Shown here: positions 29,101-40,214 of the stretch, piece by piece
Numbering within the stretch: the first letter of the stretch is position 1
Layout: every line of letters starts with the position of its first letter
Source of the DNA: Nitrospira sp.
Lineage (GTDB): Bacteria > Nitrospirota > Nitrospiria > Nitrospirales > Nitrospiraceae
Reading direction: 5' to 3'
Length of the DNA: 64,000 nt
NCBI GenBank assembly: GCA_030653545.1
Contig: JAURZE010000024.1
Span: 186,001 to 250,000, forward strand
Made by a program: the position numbers and the translations under genes
Notes under the pieces: generated by a model
Database searches by the model: none
Told to the model about the DNA's origin: nothing
Seen by the model: only the letters and a program-made list of their open reading frames with translations

Positions 29101-29607
29101 CTAGAGGCCGCCGGGCTGCCAGGTGGCGGGTTTGAAGTAGGCCTGAGGTTGGTTCTGATTGACGGCCTTGCGGATGACGAGAAAATGCGTGGAGCAGGAC
29201 AGAGCATCGATCTCACTCGGCGAGAAGAATCGCGCATCGGATGTCTCTTCATGATCCGGACGAGGCGTCCCGCGAATGACACGCGCGGCGAACACCGTCG
29301 TGACGGCGGCAAGCTGATCGCCGTTGTCGTAGGTCTTAGAGAAGTGCTCACCCGCAAAGACGCCCAGGATGTGGGTCAGCTCCACAAACACTCCGGCTTC
29401 CTCCCACGCCTCCCGCACCGCCGCATCGGACGGCAACTCATGCGGGTCGATAATTCCGCTCGGCGCGCTCCAGCGGCCGGAGTCCTTGTCCTGAATCAGC
29501 AAGAGTCGCCCGCGGTCGTCGTACGCAAAGACCATCGCGGTCGGAACTTGCAGCAGCTCAGTGCCGATCTTGGAGCGGAGGGATTTGATGAACTCTGGAA
29601 TCGGCAT
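29101..29607 (-). CDS. Nudix hydrolase, copy 1
   Basis: A 168-residue Nudix protein. The box GIIDPHELPSDAAVREAWEE-AG fits GX5EX7REUXEEXGU. It begins MPIPEFIKSLRSKIGTELLQ; an in-frame start six codons up is less likely because the second Nudix copy at 30454-30960 starts at the same MPIP. The two are closely related along their whole length (for example VFVELTH/R-LGVFAGEHFS and YFKPATWQ at the C terminus), so they arose by duplication. Substrate unknown; it probably clears a nucleotide-diphosphate derivative. Confidence 0.88.
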   Translation of the reverse strand: MPIPEFIKSLRSKIGTELLQVPTAMVFAYDDRGRLLLIQDKDSGRWSAPSGIIDPHELPSDAAVREAWEEAGVFVELTHILGVFAGEHFSKTYDNGDQLAAVTTVFAARVIRGTPRPDHEETSDARFFSPSEIDALSCSTHFLVIRKAVNQNQPQAYFKPATWQPGGL

Positions 29608-29720
29608 TATGTGCACCCCGTACAATATTTATACGTCCCTAGCTTGACCTAGCTCGCTGACACATTTCAAAAAGTCGACCGGAATGTCCCTGTAAATTTC
29701 GTTCTGCCCCCGTCACTGAG

Positions 29721-30203
29721 CTAGGCCGCTCTCCCTGGCGTCCTCCTCCCTCGCACCAAGAGCTCGACATCGCAATCCAGCACATGCAGTAACGACAGAA
29801 GTTGGTCCACCGACTTGCTGTAGTTGGTTTGATCGAGCAACCGATAGAATTGCGTGGCCGAGGTTCCCAGACGCCGGATGATCTCGCGCTTCGACAAAGC
29901 ACTGGCCTCAACCCGCTTCTGCGCTTCAACCGTCAGCTTATACAGCAAGGCATCCCTCAGGTAACGAGGATCCTGGTTGTAGGCCAGCACCTGCTCACTA
30001 TGAACCGTGCCTTCCTTGCCGGACTTCAGGACATAGGTAAATCCCTCGTTCCCCAGATCTTTGTCGACAAAAATCCGAATGATCGGATCAGCTGCACTTG
30101 GTTTCAGATCCACCGTTGAGTAAGGAAGCTGGAATGTCTGCTTCGACGTCTTGACCTGGAATGCCTTTTTGCGATTATTCAGGCTCACGGCTTGGATCTT
30201 CAT
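29721..30203 (-). CDS. Helix-turn-helix protein, probable antitoxin
   Basis: A 160-residue protein. An N-terminal part with beta-strand character (KPSAADPIIRIFVDKDLGN), resembling DUF2442-like or other small domains, precedes a C-terminal helix-turn-helix of the XRE/Cro kind (ALSKREIIRRLGTSATQFYRLL). Its ATG overlaps the upstream DUF4160 gene by 4 nt (ATGA). The pair has the size, overlap and order of a toxin-antitoxin module with the regulator second. A perfect palindrome upstream of the pair is a candidate operator for it. Confidence 0.7.
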   Translation of the reverse strand: MKIQAVSLNNRKKAFQVKTSKQTFQLPYSTVDLKPSAADPIIRIFVDKDLGNEGFTYVLKSGKEGTVHSEQVLAYNQDPRYLRDALLYKLTVEAQKRVEASALSKREIIRRLGTSATQFYRLLDQTNYSKSVDQLLSLLHVLDCDVELLVRGRRTPGRAA

Positions 30204-30400
30204 AGAACCCCCTCACGTTCCAATTCCTCAATCAGCGTACACACTCGCCTTGCACTCTTGCCGATCATCGGTTGTCCACGTTCCAGATCCCATTTCACAA
30301 TGAGGACACCGTCCCGATACACATGGACATGCCGGGGAGGGTGATCGCTCTTCCAGGTGACGAACACATACCCTCCTCGACGAACTTTACCCATGTGCAA
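30200..30400 (-). CDS. DUF4160 family protein, probable toxin
   Basis: A protein of 64-66 residues with the DUF4160 core FVTWKSDHPPRHVHVYRDGVLIVKWDLERGQP, including the conserved HPP-HVHV. GGAGGT lies 5 nt before a TTG at 30400 and 11 nt before an ATG at 30394, so the TTG may be the true start. Small DUF4160 proteins are often encoded next to HTH proteins and are thought to act as toxins, but no activity is known to me. It is flanked by two related Nudix genes, as if the pair had been inserted between them. Confidence 0.65.
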   Translation of the reverse strand: MHMGKVRRGGYVFVTWKSDHPPRHVHVYRDGVLIVKWDLERGQPMIGKSARRVCTLIEELEREGVL

Positions 30401-30411
30401 GTGTTACCTCC

Positions 30412-30429
30412 ACAGGTATCACCTGTCAA
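30412..30429 (-). promoter_or_regulatory. Palindromic candidate operator over a -35 box of the DUF4160/HTH pair
   Basis: ACAGGT-ATC-ACCTGT (30412-30426) is a perfect palindrome with a 3-nt centre. It overlaps TTGACA (30424-30429 on the minus strand), a consensus -35 box 24 nt before the first start codon. The -10 region is weak (TAACAC). The layout suits autoregulation by the HTH protein. Confidence 0.5.
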
Positions 30430-30453
30430 GACAGAAGGTCGGCGGGCGAATAG

Positions 30454-30960
30454 TTACAGGCCTGGCAGCTGCCAGGTGGCCGGCTTGAAGTAGGCTTGGG
30501 ATCGGTCGTGGCTCAGGGCCTGACGAATCACGTGGAAATGCGGCTGACAGGGCAGCGCCGCGATCTCGTCGGGAAGAAAGAACCGCGCATCGGCCGTCTC
30601 AGCATGATCCGGGCGAGGCGTGCCGCTGATCGGACGCGCGGCAAAGACGGTCGACACACAGGCTATCTGGTCGCCGTTGTCGTAGGTGCCGGAAAAGTGT
30701 TCTCCGGCAAAGACGCCGAGGACGCGGGTCAACTCGACAAACACTCCGGCTTCCTCCCAGGTCTCCCGCACCGCCGCATCGGCGAGCAACTCAAGGGGCT
30801 CGACGATGCCCCCCGGCGCACCCCACAAACCTGAGGACTTTTCCTGAATCAACAAGAGACGCCCGCTGTCGTCATAAGCAAACACGGCGACGGTGGAAAC
30901 CTGCAACAATTCCGTGCCGACCTTGGAGCGGAGAGATTGAATGAAACCGGGAATGGGCAT
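30454..30960 (-). CDS. Nudix hydrolase, copy 2
   Basis: A 168-residue Nudix protein with box GIVEPLELLADAAVRETWEE-AG. The frame is open 44 codons further upstream, but the start MPIPGFIQSLRS at 30960 matches its paralogue 850 nt away and the upstream part is not conserved. It shares most of its length with the other copy, including HPDH/E-T-DARFF near the C-terminal third. The duplication frames the toxin-antitoxin-like pair. Confidence 0.88.
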   Translation of the reverse strand: MPIPGFIQSLRSKVGTELLQVSTVAVFAYDDSGRLLLIQEKSSGLWGAPGGIVEPLELLADAAVRETWEEAGVFVELTRVLGVFAGEHFSGTYDNGDQIACVSTVFAARPISGTPRPDHAETADARFFLPDEIAALPCQPHFHVIRQALSHDRSQAYFKPATWQLPGL

Positions 30961-30968
30961 GGGTCTGG

Positions 30969-31649
30969 CTAACCTTTGCTGTGAGCGGCCGACGAGGGCC
31001 TGAACCCCGCATTGGGCCGCTCGATAAGAGGGTGCGTGGCACGGTTGACGAGACACTCGGCGGCGACAAGATTCGGCAGCCAGCAAAGCCACGCGATGAT
31101 CGGATAGACGATTTCAAACGCCGCCCCAAGAGCCACGGAGGCAGGCAAGTACAAGCGCAGCGTGACGGCGGCGAAGGTGAGCGCGAAGTTTCGAACCATC
31201 CAGCAGCGATGAGCCGTGAAGTCGCAGGCCCGAACGGCGAAATAGGCACGGGAGCCGCTGTACAGCCAAGCAACAGCGAGACAGGCGAAGCCTAACCGGG
31301 ACGGAAGGCCGCCGAACGCATGAAACGCCATGAACAGGCCCGAGAGCCCTCCGATCAGCACACCAATCGCAAGGTAGAGCCGGCCGAGCCGGCGGTGCAG
31401 AGCAGGCCGCCGGTCGCGCAACGTCGATGAAAACTGAAACGGCCCCAGGGCCAGCGCGACGGCCGCGCCGAACACATGTGCATAAATGCCGACGGGATGG
31501 GCTTCGAAGGTGGCGCGCATGTCAGGATGAACCAGCGCCCCGACAGGCAGGAAGCCATAGACGGCGAGAGCGTAGCCCGCAACCGCGAGCGACAATACGA
31601 CCAGTGCAATAAAGCCAGCGAGACGCATAACACCATGGTCCAGGCTCAT
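30969..31649 (-). CDS. DUF2306 family membrane protein
   Basis: A protein of up to 226 residues with seven or so membrane helices and the DUF2306 signatures: HVFGAAVALALGPFQFS, RRLGRLYLAIGVLIGGLSG, and the histidine-rich loop FTAHRCWMVRNFALTFAAVTLRLYLP. The conserved His residues could bind heme or metal. Function unknown. It lies 8 nt before the second Nudix gene and may be transcribed with it. Confidence 0.75.
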   Translation of the reverse strand: MSLDHGVMRLAGFIALVVLSLAVAGYALAVYGFLPVGALVHPDMRATFEAHPVGIYAHVFGAAVALALGPFQFSSTLRDRRPALHRRLGRLYLAIGVLIGGLSGLFMAFHAFGGLPSRLGFACLAVAWLYSGSRAYFAVRACDFTAHRCWMVRNFALTFAAVTLRLYLPASVALGAAFEIVYPIIAWLCWLPNLVAAECLVNRATHPLIERPNAGFRPSSAAHSKG

Positions 31650-31804
31650 AGGTATCCGTGACAGCCCAACGTCGCCGGGCCAGCTGACCGGACTATCCCC
31701 GTTTTTTGCATTCTACGTTTGACGAGTTTCTATGATCAACCGGGAAGCCGATGGCTTCTGCCAAGGGCTCCTACCGCAAGAACTGTTTACACTCCTCACT
31801 CGAT

Positions 31805-33010
31805 CTAGCCCTCGTCGCTCAGGCCATTGCTATGCCGCGTGGTTTTCCCTGGATGCTCGATCGGGGGCAGCAAATGCGTTGGCACAAAAAACCAACCCGC
31901 GATGAGCGTGGGGACCACCGCGCTCGCTATCACGGCAGCCACGAGAAAGGAATATTGCTCCTGGGTCACCAAGCCATGCGCTAATCCATAGAGAGACGAG
32001 ATGGTCCCGAATGTCAGGCCGGTCGACATCAGCAGCGTGTAATACCAGCGTTCGTTGCGATCCTGCCGGAAGGCACTGATAATCGGATAGAGGCCGAAAA
32101 TCTTGGACGCCACTTTGCCCAGGAGCAACGCAATGAACACCAGCGGCGCCGCAAGCAGCGCCGGCAGCGACACCAGCGTCCCGGCGCGCAGGAAATAGAA
32201 GGGTGTGAGAAACCCCACCGTCAGCGTTCGCAACCGGCGGATCCAATGCGTATCTCTCGCAGCGCTTCCCGCCAACACCATGCCGACAAGGTACGCCGGC
32301 AGCACAGCTTCGCTCCCAGACCACAAAGCCAGCGCGCCCAATCCAAAGAGAATCAGCATGATCCATTTCGTCCGGATTGCAGCGGTGCGATGGGCATAAT
32401 GCCTGGTCAGCCACGCCGTCGTGAACGGCAACGACGCGAGCACCGCCACGCTCCCCGCGATGAACACCACTGTCTTATACGTGAAGGGCGCGAAGAGCAG
32501 GCCGAGGGCGATCACGGTTCCGAGGTCATTGATGAAACAGGAGCCGAGAATCCCCTTCCCGAAATCCGTCTTATTGAAGCCTGTTTCCAACATGACGGCA
32601 TAGACCACCGCCATGGAGGTCGTCGAGAGAGCAATACCGCAGAGCCAACTGGCATTCGCATCCCATCCCAACAAATAGTAAGCGACTGCGGCGCAACCGA
32701 AAAATGGCGCCAGGAACCCCGCCAAGCCGACGACGCTCACCTCCGTCAACTTCGTTTTGATCACGTCAGGGTCCAATTCCGCACCAGCCAGGAACGTCAG
32801 CACAACTGCGCCGGCGGCCGCGAGGAATCGCACCCACTCGGAATTGGCGGCAAGCACATCGCCCAGGCCGAACCAGCCGGTGGCGGCGGCGGCACCGACA
32901 CCCACACAAATTTCAACGAGCGCGATCGAAAGACCCAGGGAAGAAGCAATGAGGGCGGACACAACTGCGAGGGCGAGCCACAAGGATGCAGTGATGAAGA
33001 TGGGTTCCAT
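31805..33010 (-). CDS. Kef-type cation:proton antiporter
   Basis: A 401-residue integral membrane protein of the CPA2 (Na+/H+ exchanger, KefB/KefC) type, with about 12 helices. It has the helix-5 region (AALVLTFLAGAELDPDVIKTKL), and the family ND-like motif INDLGTVIALGLLF, where the Asp is the likely ion-binding residue. Only the membrane part is present; no TrkA-N nucleotide-binding domain follows. The start at 33010 is chosen because GGAGGAC lies 6 nt before it; an earlier start at 33058 would add a non-hydrophobic stretch. Confidence 0.85.
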   Translation of the reverse strand: MEPIFITASLWLALAVVSALIASSLGLSIALVEICVGVGAAAATGWFGLGDVLAANSEWVRFLAAAGAVVLTFLAGAELDPDVIKTKLTEVSVVGLAGFLAPFFGCAAVAYYLLGWDANASWLCGIALSTTSMAVVYAVMLETGFNKTDFGKGILGSCFINDLGTVIALGLLFAPFTYKTVVFIAGSVAVLASLPFTTAWLTRHYAHRTAAIRTKWIMLILFGLGALALWSGSEAVLPAYLVGMVLAGSAARDTHWIRRLRTLTVGFLTPFYFLRAGTLVSLPALLAAPLVFIALLLGKVASKIFGLYPIISAFRQDRNERWYYTLLMSTGLTFGTISSLYGLAHGLVTQEQYSFLVAAVIASAVVPTLIAGWFFVPTHLLPPIEHPGKTTRHSNGLSDEG

Positions 33011-33196
33011 TCGGGAGTCCTCCGTTTCGGCCTGGCTGTACAAACCGGGCGCCGCCACGCTGGCGGCAATCCTACGGCTACGGCAGTAGTAGCGTAGGAG
33101 TCATCAGCCTGGCCGAGGCGGTTATACGGGGGACTCCATCCCCTGGGGAAGAAGAGTATACGCGAAATAACGAGCTACGGCATCACTGCGTTTCTA

Positions 33197-33571
33197 TCAA
33201 TTGAATGCCCGACGCCAGCCCCACGCAAAAATGATTGCGTATACCAGCGCATTGCCCGCCACAATGAACACACCTGCCACGAGTTCCAATTGTCGCGGCA
33301 TGCCCCGCGGGTAAACAATGGGTCCGATGTAGTGTTGTACAAAGCCACCTGAATAGCCGAGCTGACCGGCGCGAGTGCGGAGGGCATTCTCAATCGGAGT
33401 CAATGGGCAGGTCCAGCTCATGAGATTCACCACCGAAGACCAGAGCACCACGGGAATATGCACCCAGGCCCAGGCTTGATCGAAAAACGCCAACGGTCCG
33501 CCGAAGACTGCAAATGCAGCAAAGAGAAAGTGCGCGAACAAGACCAGATCCGCACTGAGGCGATACAGCAT
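33197..33571 (-). CDS. DUF2784 family membrane protein
   Basis: A 124-residue membrane protein with four helices and the DUF2784 core LSADLVLFAHFLFAAFAVFGG followed by LMSWTCPLTPIENALR, where the CPLT-ENxLR motif is diagnostic. Function unknown. It stands alone between the antiporter and the cassette-like cluster. Confidence 0.85.
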   Translation of the reverse strand: MLYRLSADLVLFAHFLFAAFAVFGGPLAFFDQAWAWVHIPVVLWSSVVNLMSWTCPLTPIENALRTRAGQLGYSGGFVQHYIGPIVYPRGMPRQLELVAGVFIVAGNALVYAIIFAWGWRRAFN

Positions 33572-33660
33572 ATCGATCAGCTACCTGCCGTCCAATAGGC
33601 GATATTCACTCGTCTGAAGGAACAAAGGTGTCTGACATCTCTGTTTCTCATGTCGCGCCA

Positions 33661-34005
33661 TCAGATCGTTATGTCGCTGATTTCGATGATAGCCTCACCT
33701 CGCTCAATGAGGGTTCGCGCTGATGGCCACGCCTGCGTGAGGATCGCTTTCAGCTTTGCGTTTGAGGTGTTCCCGCAAGTGACCCAGACAATTTGCGGTG
33801 GCTGACCAAGCTGGGTCACGAGATCGACCAAGTCACGGTCCTTCGTCAGCACAACCACCTTGGCCCTGCGTGCGGCAAGAAAGATGGTCCGATCCGTCGC
33901 ATCGCGCAAGCCTATATCCTTGAGTGCGATCGCCTCAATGTTGAAGGTCGAACTCAGCCATGGCGCAATGAAAGGAGAAATCTGGGCGTCGAGCCAGATC
34001 TTCAC
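33661..34005 (-). CDS. DUF5615 PIN-like protein, probable toxin
   Basis: A 114-residue protein of the DUF5615/Mut7-C PIN-like family. It begins MKIWLDAQISPFIAPWL with the first acidic residue of the PIN site, then LRDATDRTIFLAARRAKVVVLTKDRDLVDL, which holds the further conserved Asp residues. It is coupled to a DUF433 gene by a 4-nt ATGA overlap. DUF433 and DUF5615 pairs are regarded as toxin-antitoxin systems with a PIN-like nuclease; the target is unknown. Confidence 0.85.
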   Translation of the reverse strand: MKIWLDAQISPFIAPWLSSTFNIEAIALKDIGLRDATDRTIFLAARRAKVVVLTKDRDLVDLVTQLGQPPQIVWVTCGNTSNAKLKAILTQAWPSARTLIERGEAIIEISDITI

Positions 34006-34226
34006 GCAGCGAGGATCGGGTGATTGAGTCGGCTACTGGCAAAGCGAAGGCAGGCAGAGATATCTTCCGCGACGAGATCCGGCAGCTCTTCAAGCACCTG
34101 TTGCTGCGTCAGCCCAGCGGCCAGGAGATCGAGTACATCGATCACTCGAATCCGCATCCCCCGAATGCAGGGCCGACCTCCGCACTGCTCAGGATTCACG
34201 GTGATACGATCAACAAGTTCAGCCAT
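34002..34226 (-). CDS. DUF433 family protein, probable antitoxin
   Basis: A 74-residue DUF433 protein with the diagnostic CGGRPCIRGMRIRVIDVLDLLAAG and a C-terminal DLVAEDISACLRFA helix. These are winged/helix-turn-helix-like DNA-binding antitoxins. It lies first in the pair with the PIN-like gene. Confidence 0.88.
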   Translation of the reverse strand: MAELVDRITVNPEQCGGRPCIRGMRIRVIDVLDLLAAGLTQQQVLEELPDLVAEDISACLRFASSRLNHPILAA

Positions 34227-34402
34227 GATAGACGCCTCCCGACCAGATCTCTCGCCAGCACATCGTCATGAACGAAGACCAACCCTTCGCTACGGGCAAG
34301 TCTACTGAAGAATTGGCTGTTTTTCTACTACCCAGAGGGAGAAAACTCTCCCCTGTGGGATTCTATACGCAAGGATCCAAGCCCCACCTACCGTTTGGTG
34401 AA

Positions 34403-34481
34403 GATAAAGGTGCTTGAAACCTTTATCTCCTCCCAGCGGCAGGCTGCATAGCGAACCGTCCGCTGCAACCGGATCTTAGGC
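34403..34481 (-). other. Hairpin and attC-like half-site after the DUF1398 gene
   Basis: On the minus strand the stop of the DUF1398 gene is embedded in GCCTAAG, and GGTTGCAGCGGACGG then reads on to CCTGCCGCTGG (34434-34481). GTTGCAGCGGAC with GCCGCTG is a familiar arrangement in integron attC sites; the far GTTRRRY core is not evident, so the site seems decayed. Beyond it, GATAAAGGT/ACCTTTATC (34403-34427) is a perfect 9-bp hairpin that may act as a terminator. Confidence 0.45.
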
Positions 34482-34883
34482 ATCATGTGGCCTTGCGCCA
34501 GGAAACCACTCGGTATGTTGATCCCCTTGACGACCAAAGTATGTGACTCGCTTGCCTCGAAGATACGCAATGTATCCCTGCACCCCAGCCTGTATGGCAC
34601 GCTCGCAAAATGCCCGAAACTTTTGCCCGTGCTGTTGGCTGTCTAGAATGGCCGCCTTGAGTGCGCCCACATCGAAGTCCCCCGATATCGAGGGCAGTTT
34701 CTCGAACGCGAGAGGCGCTACTACCGCTGCCCCTGATGCGCTGTAGAAGGTGAATGAACCAGTAGCATAGTCCACATGGTAATACTCGACCCCGTTGGCA
34801 ATGAGCTTGCCCACAATTTCAGGAAACGGGATCGAGCCATCCAGCGCGGCCTTTGCCAGTACGGCAATCTCGTTCGCATTCAT
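34476..34883 (-). CDS. DUF1398 family protein
   Basis: A 135-residue protein with the DUF1398 pattern: an N-terminal helix, FPEIVGKLIANGVEYYHVDYATG, then FYSASGAAVV and a C-terminal GVQGYIAYLRGKRVTYFGRQGDQHTEWFP. The frame is open to 34967, but the first 28 codons coincide with a dispersed repeat that also lies before the ATPase gene at 38698, so the ATG at 34883 is the probable start. Function unknown; family members are sometimes labelled phage envelope-like. Confidence 0.75.
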   Translation of the reverse strand: MNANEIAVLAKAALDGSIPFPEIVGKLIANGVEYYHVDYATGSFTFYSASGAAVVAPLAFEKLPSISGDFDVGALKAAILDSQQHGQKFRAFCERAIQAGVQGYIAYLRGKRVTYFGRQGDQHTEWFPGARPHDA

Positions 34884-34921
34884 GTCCGACCTCTCACGTG
34901 AAGTGATAACTTTGATATGCC

Positions 34922-34969
34922 GCCTGACAATGTTCGGGCCAATCCGCATAAAAACTGGGCCTGCCATTT
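34922..34969. repeat. 48-nt dispersed repeat, copy A
   Basis: Identical at 38 of 48 positions, without gaps, to 38749-38796. It starts with GCCTGAC (copy B: GCCTAAC) on the plus strand, contains ATCCGCATAA and ends in TGCCATTT. Each copy lies just upstream of a minus-strand gene in the cassette-like cluster, so it may be one half of a recombination site. Confidence 0.7.
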
Positions 34970-35009
34970 CCTTCCGCGTAACTATCCCCTCCCCCGCCTA
35001 ACGCGGGAA

Positions 35010-35573
35010 TCAAGCTGCGCCGCCTTTATGTACTTCATAGCGCAACTCAGCCATACCAGCACCGATCTGCCGAACCGATACTAAGCGCAGATGTGGGCTG
35101 AACACCCTGCGAGGGAAGAGCGGCTTCCCCTTGCCGAGCGTGACTGAGCCAATCTGGATGATCAACTCGTCCAACAGGCCGGCATCGTAGAATTGACCGA
35201 CGAGATCGCCGCCTCCGACGATCCAAATATTTTTGCCGCCAGCGGCAGCTCGCATGTCAGCATGGATTGGGCGCACATCGCCACTGACGAAGCGGATATC
35301 TTTGCCGCCAACTAGTGGAAGCGTGCGGCGGGAGAATATCCAGACCGGCTGTGTATAGGGCCACGGCGAACCAGTCTCAGCCGCAACCTTTTCTGTGTTG
35401 CGCAGCATCCAGTCGTAGGTCGCCGACCCCATAGCCAACGCACCAACTTCCGATATGAATGCCGGATAGCTGGAATCATTCAGATCACCGAGAGGGAACA
35501 GCCACTCCAGCGAGTCGTCTTCGGTGGCGATGAATCCGTCAAGACTAGTGGCGGTGTAGTACTGAGTTTTCAT
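35010..35573 (-). CDS. RibD-C/dihydrofolate-reductase-like protein
   Basis: A 187-residue protein of the RibD C-terminal/DHFR-like family, with MKTQYYTATSLDGFIA at the N terminus, MGSATYDWML, IFSRRTLPL and the NADPH-binding IWIVGGGDLVGQF. It probably reduces a pterin, deaminated flavin intermediate or similar substrate with NADPH; the exact one is unknown. Such stand-alone genes are common in integron cassettes. GCCTAAC (34996-35002) lies right after its stop. Confidence 0.85.
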   Translation of the reverse strand: MKTQYYTATSLDGFIATEDDSLEWLFPLGDLNDSSYPAFISEVGALAMGSATYDWMLRNTEKVAAETGSPWPYTQPVWIFSRRTLPLVGGKDIRFVSGDVRPIHADMRAAAGGKNIWIVGGGDLVGQFYDAGLLDELIIQIGSVTLGKGKPLFPRRVFSPHLRLVSVRQIGAGMAELRYEVHKGGAA

Positions 35574-35830
35574 GATGTGAGTTTCGGCACGTCATGAGAT
35601 CTGATCACCGTGATTCCCTCAACCAAGAAGGTGATGGCTCCTGCCCCTCGCTCGCCAACGCCAGAAATGTAGAATGTCCCCGTTTTTTCCGCCAGTGTGC
35701 GGAGGCCAACACTGCCACCCGAAGGAGAAATGAATAGTTCCTGGAACCTTTTTCTTGCCGTTAATTTCTCCCACCGGCAGAAATGAAGAATCTCGTGGTT
35801 GGTTTCCCCTTGATGGAGACGGTAGGCAAC

Positions 35831-36307
35831 TCAGTTACCCAGTAAACCATGAAGCGCAGTATCGATTGCCAACAGGAGTTGGTAGGCATTGCGAGCCTCA
35901 TCTTGTGCTGTTTGCGTTTCTCCAGTATCAAAGTGAGCTTTCTCATGGACAAGCTCTTTGCGAGCTATTCTGAATCGTGCAGCGGCTTCAAGAATGGAGT
36001 TGTCATCAATTCCAATAAGCCGGAGTTTCTCTTCGTAGGGCTTGAAGTCGACCTCTCTGAATTTCTCTTCGCCGTGATTACGAACAATCAGCAAATGCAG
36101 CAAGGCCTCTAGCCACATCCCGGTAAAGACAATGGCGACCATTGCCTGTTTGAAGCTCTTCTGGTTTGGATCGAATTGCAGGATCCAGCCTGGAGACCCA
36201 TCTTCCTTTGGCCGGCGCCCAGACTCGACGAGCTCTTGCATCGCTTCAAAAGCTTCAATCGCTATCGCCCTATAGGTCGAGACGTTCGTGAAAATGAGTT
36301 CTGCCAT
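35831..36307 (-). CDS. Hypothetical protein with HEPN-like Rx4H motif, copy 1
   Basis: A 158-residue, mostly helical protein of no family I can name. It has VFTGMWLEALLHLLIV in the middle and then RIARKELVHEK, where R-x4-H matches the active-site pattern of HEPN RNases. The arrangement (a long helix with a hydrophobic stretch, then the RxxxxH helix near residue 120) resembles RloC/abortive-infection HEPN proteins, but I cannot confirm the fold. A second protein with the same feature is encoded 120 nt upstream. Confidence 0.5.
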   Translation of the reverse strand: MAELIFTNVSTYRAIAIEAFEAMQELVESGRRPKEDGSPGWILQFDPNQKSFKQAMVAIVFTGMWLEALLHLLIVRNHGEEKFREVDFKPYEEKLRLIGIDDNSILEAAARFRIARKELVHEKAHFDTGETQTAQDEARNAYQLLLAIDTALHGLLGN

Positions 36308-36314
36308 AGAGTTG

Positions 36315-36413
36315 CTGTAATGTACTGCCGGTCAGCGGCGAGCGGTATTCATGATCACTTCAGGCCGAGCACACTTTTTGCCGCCGCTCGTCGGCCGCAG
36401 CAGCCTGTTAGGC
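36315..36413 (-). other. attC-like site between the two HEPN-like genes
   Basis: On the minus strand, shortly after the stop of the gene at 36426, GCCTAAC (36407-36413) is followed by a stem-forming stretch, GACGAGCGGCGG, with the partner CCGCTCGCCGCTG about 45 nt later. Length (about 100 nt), core RYYYAAC and paired GC-rich arms fit an attC site. The far core (ATTAC) is degenerate. Confidence 0.45.
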
Positions 36414-36425
36414 GGCAGTATTCGG

Positions 36426-36953
36426 CTATCGCTGTATCGCCTGCCAGTAGCTCGTTGCGCGCCGGACATTATGGCCGCGCTGGTCGAGGACGCGAAACAA
36501 CTCCAAAACGATGTCCTTGGCCTGTTGCCGAAGCCTTTGCGCTTCTGCCAGCGAACGACCGCTTCGATTGATAACACCGTGTGAAATGTCGTTGCGGAAG
36601 CGATGTAGTGGCGCGAATCCTGGAAAGCGCCGTCGCACCTTGCGATCTACTTCCTGCTTCCGGGCGGCACCCAGATCATCCGCCCGGACAGGTGAGATGA
36701 AGTCGTTGTAGAACCACGCCAATTTGTCTCCGAGTCCTGGATGCTTCCGGTGACCCATGAACTGCCTCACGCGCCGCTTCAACTTCAGCACCCGTACGAT
36801 GTGATTGAGGTTGGCCTCGACGTAGAAGCCCGCGAACAACACCACAATTGTGCAGTTGCAGACCTGGGTGTCGGGCCCCTCGTTGAGAGCCCGGCCAAGA
36901 GCCTGCCAACTGGTGGCAATTAGAATCGGAGCATGTCCGCCAGCTTCTGGCAA
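36426..36953 (-). CDS. Hypothetical protein with HEPN-like Rx4H motif, copy 2
   Basis: A 175-residue helical protein. It has VVLFAGFYVEANLNHIVRVL, comparable to the central helix of its neighbour, and later RFRNDISHGVIN, where R-x4-H (here with N after R, as in many HEPN proteins) is visible near residue 125. No catalytic domain besides this is recognisable. It could be an RNase or a degraded toxin. The start is uncertain; no strong ribosome site was found. Confidence 0.5.
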   Translation of the reverse strand: MPEAGGHAPILIATSWQALGRALNEGPDTQVCNCTIVVLFAGFYVEANLNHIVRVLKLKRRVRQFMGHRKHPGLGDKLAWFYNDFISPVRADDLGAARKQEVDRKVRRRFPGFAPLHRFRNDISHGVINRSGRSLAEAQRLRQQAKDIVLELFRVLDQRGHNVRRATSYWQAIQR

Positions 36954-37085
36954 TCCTCAACTCCCAATTAAGCACTGATGCCTAACGCCGTAGCAGAGAT
37001 AACGGTGTCTGCCACCTTTGTTTTCTTTGTCGAATCGGTTCCTGCCGGAAATTCGTCTACCCCCTTTTCTTGCCCACCACGACAG

Positions 37086-38318
37086 CTATGCGATCAGATC
37101 GGCGGGGAAAGACCCGAGCAAGGTTCGGACACGCTTTACCGCTTCCGAATCGTGCACCAGGAGGTTACGAACAGCCGCTTCATACTGAGCACGATTCGCG
37201 AAATTAAGCGCCTTAGCAATGGCATCGAGCGCGGGTGATTCTCGAATTGGATACCTCTGCAAAACACCGACGAAGTCGGATGCGTTGACCAATGCCTCGA
37301 TACGCGCTGCCTCATCTTTCGCATACTTCGCAAAATCGATTTCAGCGGTACGTTTGCCGCCCGCTGCCACCTCACCCTTTTTAGGTAGCAGCGAGAAGAC
37401 CTGAGCCCGCGCCGATTTCTCAGCAATCCGTACACTGAGATGCTTGGCATTTTCACGGATCGCTTTGATGGCATCGTTATTTGCCTTCTCCAGTTTTTCC
37501 GTCAGATCGCCGCCTACTACCCCTGCCAGTTTCTCGCCTGCCAGCTTCTGCACTTCGGGGTGGTAGTAGATAGATTCAACCGAATATACGTTCAGTGGAA
37601 TCACACCCTTGGCTTGCAAGTCCGCGATCCGCTCTGGTTCTGAAGTATCGTTGTCCACCAGCCCGAACGGTTTCACCCAGTGAAGCTCAGCCGTGCCTTT
37701 GATACCAACGACCGCATTCTCGACCTCACGACAGTTGGCCTTGGCCACGATTGACGCATTCGGAAACAGGAGACTGTACAGCGGCTTGTCAAGGCTGTGC
37801 TCGACGCCCTCAACAAACACGATCTTCCGACGCTCGCCCAAGATGGTTCTTTTCAGATCGTCATCAATCCCAGTGATGCTCTCCAGCAAATCGATATCGT
37901 AAGACGCGACCCCGTCGCCCTCGTAGACACAGGCACGCGTCAGCAGGACTTTCGATCCCGGATTGTCCACTGGAAGCAATGGCTCATGCGTAGACACGAT
38001 GAAAGCACAATCTGGTCTTTCCTTGAGCAGAAGCGACAGAAGCGGGGATACGATCGAACGATGCAGGTGCCGCTCTGGCTCATCGATGAGGAGAAGCGTT
38101 CCTGCTGGCACGGTCAGTACGTTGGCGGCAATAAGAATCGCGTTGCGCTCTCCGTCGGAAAGCTTTGAGATGCTGTAGGACTTGCTGCCATTCCGAGTCG
38201 CCACGATCTCGTCGTTTGCCTCAACGGACACGACGACGTCGAGATTGGCCAGCCGTAGCAAGCGGTTCAGGGTCGCAAATACACCGTCTTTGGCAGACAG
38301 TATATTGACTTCGGCTGT
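37086..38318 (-). CDS. ABC-ATPase signature and DUF4435-like part of a frameshifted OLD/PARIS-like protein
   Basis: The second part of a protein whose first part is at 38267-38698. From 38318 the frame reads TAEVNILSAKDG and continues through the ABC signature LSDGER, Walker B LLLIDEPERHL and the switch His in STHEP, then a C-terminal domain beginning IVFVEGVEHSLDKPLYSLL and FGLVDNDTSEPERI. The conserved Glu and Asp of that domain look like a TOPRIM/DUF4435 fold. No good ATG opens this frame; its first candidate is a TTG at 38261, so it is likely translated only by frameshifting, or the gene is broken. Joined at the slip site it would be about 537 residues. An ATPase-DUF4435 pair is the layout of PARIS phage-defence systems. 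Confidence 0.7.
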   Translation of the reverse strand, partial: TAEVNILSAKDGVFATLNRLLRLANLDVVVSVEANDEIVATRNGSKSYSISKLSDGERNAILIAANVLTVPAGTLLLIDEPERHLHRSIVSPLLSLLLKERPDCAFIVSTHEPLLPVDNPGSKVLLTRACVYEGDGVASYDIDLLESITGIDDDLKRTILGERRKIVFVEGVEHSLDKPLYSLLFPNASIVAKANCREVENAVVGIKGTAELHWVKPFGLVDNDTSEPERIADLQAKGVIPLNVYSVESIYYHPEVQKLAGEKLAGVVGGDLTEKLEKANNDAIKAIRENAKHLSVRIAEKSARAQVFSLLPKKGEVAAGGKRTAEIDFAKYAKDEAARIEALVNASDFVGVLQRYPIRESPALDAIAKALNFANRAQYEAAVRNLLVHDSEAVKRVRTLLGSFPADLIA

Positions 38319-38698
38319 TTTTTTGCGTCGACAGCCCGCGTAATCTCGCGGGCACGCACGTTCTCGTAGTTAACTAAGTCGTAGATCGCCATCTGAGCGC
38401 GCTGCTGCGAGTAGTCGTCCATCCAACGCGCGTTCGCCTGTCGATCAGAATGGAACATATTCTGTTCATAGTCTGCACGCTGTTTGCTGGTGAACTCGGG
38501 CGCTCCAGATCGAAACCAAGTTTGGCGGTGGGCCGTGATTCGCCGGGTCTTCCCGGTGCTAGCCGATGCGAAAGCCTGCATAAGGCTCGATTTGCCGGTG
38601 CCGTTTGCACCAAGGATGAAGAGCATCTGCCCAGCGTTTACCGTCAGTGCTAGAGCGCCTGTCGCCTTGCCGGTAGGGATTGATAACGAGAATGGCAT
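38267..38698 (-). CDS. ATP-binding N-terminal part of the frameshifted OLD/PARIS-like protein
   Basis: A 143-residue frame with Walker A GANGTGKSS near residue 30-38 and the Q-loop region after it; it ends in a non-conserved tail (KSIYCLPKTVYLRP) that is read out of frame. At 38318-38324 the minus strand has seven A in the phase GCA AAA AAA. A -1 slip there continues directly into the frame of the downstream part (ACA GCC GAA), restoring a complete AAA/ABC ATPase. Either this is programmed frameshifting at A-AAA-AAA, or one A has been lost from the gene or the assembly. Confidence 0.75.
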   Translation of the reverse strand: MPFSLSIPTGKATGALALTVNAGQMLFILGANGTGKSSLMQAFASASTGKTRRITAHRQTWFRSGAPEFTSKQRADYEQNMFHSDRQANARWMDDYSQQRAQMAIYDLVNYENVRAREITRAVDAKKQPKSIYCLPKTVYLRP

Positions 38699-38748
38699 GT
38701 TAGATATCCACGACCATATGGGTGTGCCCCTCGATGAAGCTTTCCTCG

Positions 38749-38796
38749 CCTAACAATGTTTAGGCCGATCCGCATAAGAGCCGAATCTGCCATTTT
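38749..38796. repeat. 48-nt dispersed repeat, copy B
   Basis: Matches copy A at 34922-34969 at 38 of 48 positions. It starts with GCCTAAC (38749-38755), the RYYYAAC-type core seen at other gene borders of this cluster. It lies 50 nt upstream of the ATPase gene. Confidence 0.7.
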
Positions 38797-39397
38797 CTGT
38801 CCCTATAGCACTTCACTATTGACCTTGAACAATACGCCACGACCGCTCCCTTTTCAATGAAGTGCGAGTGTGCGCCCAGTTACTACGAAGTCCTATGCAG
38901 ATCGACATAACCCTCTTTTTACATAGGCTCACAACCCATCGAGCGGATAACAAACGTTCGCTTGCTCACTTCATCGCGGGACTGCCTGGCTGACCCTCAA
39001 TTGCGCGCGTCGAACATCCCCTTATTCCTCTTCTCCATCCCACCCCTTCTTTCTCTAGGGGCTGCCGGACTGTCCTTCCCTGCGCACATTGAGCGACCAC
39101 CGTTTCACCGTGAGGGATCAGCGAGCAAGAAGGATGGTCTGGCGGCTCGCCCATCCCTCCAAACTCGCTCTTCACCTCTCCAGGGATGGGGGATGATTGA
39201 TCTTCCACTGCGCGCGTCCAACGAGGGGAGTCCTCGACCGCGCGTTGCGCGAGCACAGAAGATCATCAGCCCCTATCCCCTCTCCTCCTCTGCTCCGGAA
39301 GCAAAGGATCAGCAGGGGTGTTATTCATACCATTGTTATCGTGGAGGTTCTGCGAACAAGAAGAATAGTCTGATGGGGAGAGTGAATCAGGTTCACC
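38797..39397. repeat. Non-coding stretch with GC-rich and AT-mixed repeats
   Basis: No believable gene. It contains a second copy of the repeat at 12606-12710 (CTGCGCGCGTCCAACGAGG at 39208 on, and CCGCGCGTTGCGCGAGCACA ending near 39258), decayed versions around 38999 and 39085, and two related blocks of GCGA(G/A)CAAGAAG(G/A)AT(G/A)GTCTG at about 39122 and 39354. It looks like a pile-up of intergenic repeats at the edge of the cassette-like cluster. Confidence 0.65.
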
Positions 39398-39637
39398 CTA
39401 TTGATGCTGATCGACCCACTTCTTGGCTTTTCCAAGCGCGATCACATTCGCCTTACTTTCCGTATTGCTGACCTCATGCGACTCACCCTGGAGGGTCTTC
39501 ATTGGCGCTCGGCCTCCCATTGAAAGCCAGGCGAGCGCCTTAGGCATCCATCGGTCATCTCCGAGATGTTGGGAGCAGGCCTTAATCTGATGATTTTTAT
39601 ACGTCACCCACTCAGCCACTTCCGCCCTCCTGTTCAT
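39398..39637 (-). CDS. Small hypothetical protein
   Basis: A 79-residue frame with AGGAAAAG 0-1 nt before the ATG region and a plausible composition (WVTYKNHQIKACSQHLGDDRWMPKALAWL). The second half is rich in polar residues and ends KAKKWVDQHQ. I recognise no family. It lies inside a repeat-rich stretch, so it may be an isolated cassette-type gene or a chance frame. Confidence 0.45.
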   Translation of the reverse strand: MNRRAEVAEWVTYKNHQIKACSQHLGDDRWMPKALAWLSMGGRAPMKTLQGESHEVSNTESKANVIALGKAKKWVDQHQ

Positions 39638-40214
39638 CTTTTCCTATGGTGACGTTGAGGATAGCAGATACACACCAGGTATATCCTGCGCCTCAAACGT
39701 CCACTACCGCCTAGCGACTCCCCTTTGCCCTCCTGAGCCCACGCGTTGCGTGAGCACTACCCATGATCGTCCATCCAAGCTTGCTTGTTCCCTTACTCTT
39801 AGGGGTGGCCTGGATTGGTCCTCTATTGCGCACGTGGAAGGAGCACCGCCCGCAATCTGACAATACGATAAACTCTGGCGTGCGCCTTCCGTGAGCACGG
39901 AGGACTAACCGGGCTACCCCTCTTCCCATGCGGGGCTATCCCCGCATCCCTTGATGGAATGAATCTCCCCGCATCGCGTTCGCTACTCCCTCATTCTCTG
40001 AACCCCTGAATTTTACTCACGTCTTTCCCAATTCCTTCGCACGTTCCCACCGGCACTCCGGTTGCTCAAGCATAGGACCGTCGGTGCGCGGCGCAAACGG
40101 CCGGAAAGGGGGTGACGCAGGAACGAGGCCGGCGAAAAAGCCAGATCGCCGCCGGATCAGCCGACGAGTGAGATCACAACTTTCAACAATTGAACGTACG
40201 AGGAGGAAGCCATC
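39638..40214. repeat. Intergenic stretch with decayed repeat copies
   Basis: No convincing gene. CCACGCGTTGCGTGAGCACT (about 39738) and ATTGCGCACGTGGAAGGAGC (about 39821) are decayed, rearranged forms of the GC-rich repeat blocks. The last 60 nt hold the ribosome site (GAGGAGG) of the next gene. The promoter is not obvious. Confidence 0.55.

Follow-up and report, generated by a model that had tools for sequence, protein, structure and literature searches.

A fused PARIS (AriAB) defence gene split between two reading frames at a run of seven A in a Nitrospira genome, probably by a recent one-base loss

The window analysed here is a 64,000-nucleotide stretch of a 318-kb contig from Nitrospira sp., and all coordinates below refer to it unless another sequence is named. 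Between 37086 and 38698, on the minus strand, the coding sequence for a single protein lies in two overlapping reading frames. The features of the locus are the following.

38267..38698, minus strand: N-terminal ORF of 143 aa, the first part of an AriA-type ATPase with Walker A
37086..38369, minus strand: open downstream frame of 427 codons, the remaining ATPase plus an AriB-like Toprim/DUF4435 domain
38318..38324, minus strand: run of seven A in the phase GCA AAA AAA (T7 on the plus strand)
38588..38611, minus strand: Walker A (GANGTGKS)
38145..38162, minus strand: ABC signature motif (LSDGER)
38079..38096, minus strand: Walker B (LLLIDE)
37089..37877, minus strand: C-terminal AriB-like Toprim domain of 263 aa (pLDDT 86.5; best PDB match PARIS AriB)
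37809-37811, minus strand: catalytic-type Glu of FVEG, invariant in relatives
37647..37655, minus strand: Toprim D-x-D (VDND), invariant in relatives
37074..38763, minus strand: DNA common to relatives in other phyla, made up of one gene with ~55 nt before it and ~12 nt after it
38747..38798, minus strand: left border of the mobile unit, where an att-like element that recurs across the genus ends (TTATGCGGATCGGCCTAAACATTGTTAGGC)

The 143-aa ORF begins with an ATG at 38698 and ends with a TGA at 38269-38267. Beyond the A run, its final 16 codons no longer follow the frame used by the relatives. Followed upstream, the downstream frame meets no stop before 38370-38372 and thus overlaps the frame of the 143-aa ORF. 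Its sole start near the junction is a TTG at 38261, 6 nt past the upstream stop, from which a 391-aa ORF runs (37086-38261); no Shine-Dalgarno-like sequence was found before this TTG. Read in the frame of the 143-aa ORF, the minus-strand context of the A run is ...GTC GAC GCA AAA AAA CAG..., and a -1 step on the seven A joins both frames without loss to give 537 aa. The joined reading has Walker A in its first part and LSDGER, Walker B, an H-loop and Toprim-type residues in its second, and it aligns with relatives over 537 of 537 residues at 80-88% identity. Because the alignment runs end to end, we regard this as one gene in two frames and not as two genes. Direct checking of the sequence thus agreed with the original prediction, which had described two overlapping frames, an exact -1 join at 38318-38324 and a downstream frame with no proper start.

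PARIS has two known forms, one with separate genes for its two proteins and one in which they are fused in a single gene (PMC9122126). The gene in the window is a horizontally acquired fused PARIS gene, in which an ABC-type sensor ATPase is joined to a Toprim nuclease. The PADLOC model for fused AriAB matched the downstream (C-terminal) frame at 1e-49, and it matched the intact relatives at 1e-53 to 6.5e-65 across almost all 570 profile positions (27-545 for the relative L003). AAA_21 scored 62.4 bits in the joined reading (cut-off 27). The Pfam score for DUF4435 (PF14491) was 18.5 bits for the window protein and 21.2 for the relative L005; both are under the curated cut-off of 27 bits that served as the criterion in PMC9122126, a cut-off that is passed by family members L009 (31.5) and an E. 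coli plasmid protein (28.4). The key residues are all kept in the window copy: Walker A, the signature, Walker B, the Toprim Glu and D-x-D are invariant or nearly so in relatives, whose alignment identifies E297 (of FVEG), D349 and D351 as the invariant Toprim acidic residues.

Since the structure model of the whole protein was only of medium quality (pLDDT 67.7), the C-terminal domain was folded alone, together with relatives. Foldseek returned chain 8ux9_A of the PARIS complex as the only match below 0.001 for this domain. AriB chains also led a second structural alignment (8ux9_A, Z 7.8; 8v46_D, Z 7.4), where both chains were taken as AriB from their length and from the separate naming of AriA chains in those entries. 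A Z of 7.8 to AriB is moderate, yet it is above the 6.1 obtained for OLD. For the ATPase, the model of intact relative L003 gave a top Z of 13.4 to AriA (8v45_B), with PtuA chains within 1 Z. We considered Septu/PtuA as the identity of the ATPase and rejected it; PtuA ties with AriA in structure score, but it lacks a Toprim domain and its PADLOC match is far weaker. The family assignment made from the letters alone, an ATPase fused to a DUF4435/Toprim domain as in PARIS, therefore stands on the AriAB profile, the AriA and AriB structures and the retained motifs. Structural comparison of the kind proposed with that assignment, made for the ATPase on L003, places the C-terminal domain closest to AriB and the ATPase among the proteins closest to AriA. 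The gene adds an unremarkable member to a known defence family, in a copy that is broken or mis-assembled in this genome.

Five intact relatives of 537 codons (L003-L007), at 80-88% amino acid identity, come from Pseudomonas laurentiana, P. tumuqii, P. subflava, Microbulbifer taiwanensis and a Phycisphaeraceae MAG. All five are exactly one base longer than the window copy at the A run, and in none of the five is there an A7 in the slip phase. Their sequences at this point are GCCAAAAAAGT, GCAAAAAATAC, GCAAAAAAGGG, GCAAGAAAGAT and GACAAAAACCA; they carry A-rich Lys, Asn and Arg codons there, with L004 and L005 reading GCA AAA AAx. More distant relatives are uninterrupted as well (L009, L010 (49%) and L013 (44%)). 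Other copies are damaged at other places. That of a Fimbriiglobus MAG (L008, 5565-7176) has a frame break near codon 115, ~35 nt upstream and without a slip motif, and an E. coli plasmid copy has its breaks at residues 184 and 481. Within the genus just one further copy was found, in the Nitrospira MAG G013 (L011); an in-frame deletion of ~327 codons has taken out its slip-site position, Walker B and the Toprim catalytic residues. What is left of AriAB in this MAG (L011 5704-6324, equivalent to G013:C206) is 206 aa long, and the deletion lies between short direct repeats (GCGCTCAG-like). No second genome with the break of the window copy at A7 was found in genome contigs, the genus, the order, the phylum or viral contigs. 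Plasmids held only relatives below 60% identity and phages only partial matches at 27%.

These comparisons do not support the original prediction of a toxin part made only through frameshifting, since five close intact relatives lack the slip heptamer and the damaged copies break elsewhere. Uninterrupted relatives with no A run, which that prediction had itself named as pointing to an assembly error or plain mutation, are what these five turned out to be. Nor does the position of the junction suit the idea of a toxin domain being released. The junction falls within the ATPase, after Walker A and before the signature, and not at the AriA-AriB border. The AriB-like domain comes much later. Slippage would therefore release no toxin domain and would instead be needed for any ATPase at all: unshifted reading yields neither sensor nor nuclease, and shifted reading yields the entire fusion. 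The exact join does not count as separate evidence either. Whenever a base is lost at or beside an A run, at a place where the family uses AAA/AAx codons, what remains is a perfect -1 slip site. On that reading the slip site is the scar of a mutation or of a base-calling error, not a feature in its own right. Runs of exactly seven A or T are rare in the contig (n = 8 in 318 kb), but this rarity does not favour programming, given that the A-rich codons of the relatives need to lose only one base to create the motif.

Programmed or otherwise productively used -1 frameshifting on A AAA AAA, setting the amount of AriAB protein, is in our view very improbable, even though the heptamer and its phase are correct, the downstream frame overlaps and coding constraint looks intact on both sides of the junction. 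A hairpin following the A7 (-27.5 kcal/mol) stood out against dinucleotide shuffles (z -3.5), but it looks ordinary against the coding background of gene and genome and is doubtful as a stimulator. It was matched or beaten by 44 of 512 same-length stretches of the same gene; when the folded stretch was begun one base later the value was -24.3, and ~10% of GC-matched coding stretches of the window match or beat that. The intact gene of P. subflava (L006) has a hairpin of -24.5 at the corresponding place. A Shine-Dalgarno-like sequence is not obligatory for all known cases of programmed frameshifting. Using the set of such motifs given for frameshift stimulation in PMC4066793 (GAGG, GGAG, AGGA, GGNGG, AGGKG), we found none by eye at 6-17 nt upstream or in the 30 nt before the run. 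From the background shifting of 0.055% and the motif ratios of 2-10 in the same paper, our own arithmetic is that a heptamer with no stimulator would shift roughly 0.1-0.6% of the time in E. coli. Conservation of the frameshift site is the main criterion that separates programmed shifts from indels, and GeneTack requires it for the label 'programmed', taking homology-validated singletons as indels or errors (PMC3711429). No conserved site was found among the homologues of the window gene; the slip site is missing from all intact relatives and was found in no second genome, and the junction splits the ATPase rather than the antitoxin-toxin border. The programmed reading can be extended, since AriB of two-gene PARIS cleaves tRNA-Lys(UUU) among others (PMC12409363): depletion of this tRNA could raise slippage at the two AAA codons, a positive feedback. 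The full form of this idea, in which the fused protein is made only by -1 slippage on the two AAA codons and kept at trace until activated AriB stalls ribosomes there and raises its own synthesis, strikes us as highly improbable.

We consider it probable, by a modest measure, that a mobile fused PARIS gene has suffered a recent indel, a real loss of one base. No further stop or indel was seen in the remaining 1.6 kb of the window copy, and its dN/dS against relatives is 0.10-0.12, the same as between intact genes, so the break is either recent or not real. A large excess of non-synonymous change, which would mark an old pseudogene, was not seen, in a comparison of little power with only 23 private changes. 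A very recent break would leave just such an intact remainder with low dN/dS, and so would continued use of the gene. If the break is not real, the genome would hold an intact fused AriAB whose A run was called one base short. This we hold to be unlikely, though it deserves serious attention. Homopolymer runs are the classic site of one-base errors, all other features of the gene are intact, and most frameshifts that are validated by homology but occur as singletons are expected to be sequencing errors (PMC3711429). Against an error, the contig has no homopolymer-type frame break in the 231 genes that the window genome (G000) has in common with a close relative, G025, at a median amino acid identity of 91%, and its coding fraction is 0.93. 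Five frame differences were flagged between the two genomes. Most sit at the ends of genes and no long homopolymer adjoins any of them; general sloppiness of the assembly was thus rejected, as the contig does not look error-prone on this comparison. A run of seven or eight A is also short for errors in most current data, and the genuine deletion in the other same-genus copy makes loss of the gene plausible. Reversible phase variation, with slipped-strand changes in the A run turning defence on in some cells of the population and off in others, would likewise leave an A run within an ORF and the coding sequence otherwise intact, and in other bacteria restriction systems are well known to vary in phase through homopolymers (e.g., PMC6789123). 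Phase-variable tracts tend to be longer than seven A, however, and the relatives keep no long tract here, which makes this very improbable. A functional two-gene split, with termination at the TGA, reinitiation at the TTG a few nucleotides on and reassembly of the halves, is the nearest to negligible. It would separate Walker A from the signature within one nucleotide-binding domain, leave the first ORF with a last 16 residues foreign to the family, lose the ~20 family residues that lie past the A run and before the TTG, and rely on a TTG with no Shine-Dalgarno-like sequence.

The sequences establish what the gene is, its one-base difference from intact relatives and the lack of a conserved slip site. 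We infer that the base is missing from the genome itself, not just from the assembly, and that its absence inactivates the gene. In the intact relatives, AriAB would sense a phage anti-restriction signal and then release or activate a tRNA-cutting nuclease, a mechanism known for two-gene PARIS and extended here by analogy to the fused form. The window copy would recently have lost one base at or beside the A run, ~125 codons in, and would now be a pseudogene giving a 143-aa fragment. Unprogrammed slippage on the A7 may still give a trace of full-length product (tenths of a percent), and such a leak may leave trace protein as in 'savior indel' cases (PMC5009743).

The relatives in other phyla resemble this DNA only within 37074-38763, which indicates that the gene moves as a one-gene unit. 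The att-like core lies at the left border, where the homology to other phyla begins. This element is present in 59 of 79 same-genus genomes and ends a conserved stretch of ~190 nt (20 copies aligned). Copies are sometimes 0.85-1.8 kb apart, each followed by unrelated sequence. The stretch has ~19-bp inverted arms ending in GGCCTAAACATTGTTAGGC and occurs in the window at 38748-38960 and 34921-34972 (minus strand), in L027, in L047 and in others. Its end, TTATGCGGATCGGCCTAAACATTGTTAGGC, resembles the core of integron attI/attC sites such as attI1. The ~190-nt element looks like an integron attachment site, and no paper that we found describes it. In the same genome, L027 (G000:C16, 1217-1402 and 1501-1529) has a truncated ORF, a C-terminal integron-integrase-like fragment (TIGR02249, 111 bits, 67 positions), next to an att-like copy and to a small gene that resembles a cassette and has a classic-looking attC. 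The AriAB copy of Microbulbifer ends a series of short genes separated by sites that look by eye like attC. No convincing attC was found at the right border of the unit, and a search for an intact integron integrase found none. The AriAB unit is a likely candidate for an integron cassette.

The gene sits in a variable spot, as the same flanking genes enclose different small genes in the close relative G025. Between window 29607-39929 and contig 1 of that genome (G025:C1; L068-L069), the flanks are conserved at 85-88% DNA identity and the small genes between them differ: acetyltransferases, an NYN-type gene and others in G025, and AriAB, a toxin-antitoxin pair and DUF1398 in the window (names assigned by eye except for Pfam matches). 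The start of a RibD-like gene at window 35463-35687 corresponds to G025 piece 201487-201711 at 91% DNA identity. The rest of the RibD-like ORF in G025 is a different protein, making it a chimeric ORF that perhaps arose by recombination within the gene. Two small proteins with no Pfam match are encoded beside the PARIS gene (35831-36307 and 36426-36953, minus strand); both have R-x4-6-H-like motifs (RKELVHE, RNDISHG) reminiscent of HEPN RNases. A DUF433/DUF5615 pair at 33661-34226 (minus strand) is probably a toxin-antitoxin module of VapBC type. A pair of 28-nt inverted repeats (AACAAAGGTGTCTGACATC-like), possibly of REP type, flanks the variable block at 33621-33648 and 36995-37022.

A one-gene PARIS unit is common to Pseudomonas, Microbulbifer, planctomycetes and a Nitrospira-type genome, and protein identities of 80-88% across these groups show recent long-distance spread. 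Its copies have been damaged often and independently, which suggests a gene that is easily lost. The locus also carries a caution: an indel at an A run always mimics a perfect slip site, and homologues should be checked before recoding is proposed.

Compared with known programmed -1 genes (dnaX, IS3-family transposases), the window gene has in common a heptamer of X XXY YYZ type (A AAA AAA) that is in phase with an overlapping downstream frame. It differs from them in that its site is unconserved and single, with neither a Shine-Dalgarno-like stimulator nor a clearly unusual downstream structure. OLD and Gabija GajA, which combine an ABC ATPase with a Toprim domain, are the next-best matches of the C-terminal domain (Z 6.1 and 5.3), but their scores are lower, and the PADLOC match to GajA is 2.7e-06 against 1e-49 for AriAB. 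Two-gene PARIS of E. coli, AriA + AriB (PDB 8ux9, 8v45, 8v46), provides the best structural matches, although it consists of two proteins rather than one and identity is only ~15%. Closest of all is single-gene AriAB (PADLOC PDLC02982; PMC9122126), with which the window gene agrees in the order of ATPase then DUF4435/Toprim, in a full-length profile match, in Walker A and B, the signature, the Toprim E and D-x-D, and in folds matching AriA and AriB. It differs in that the window copy lies in two frames, where the intact relatives lie in one, and in its DUF4435 score below the curated cut-off, which L009 and the E. coli plasmid protein pass.
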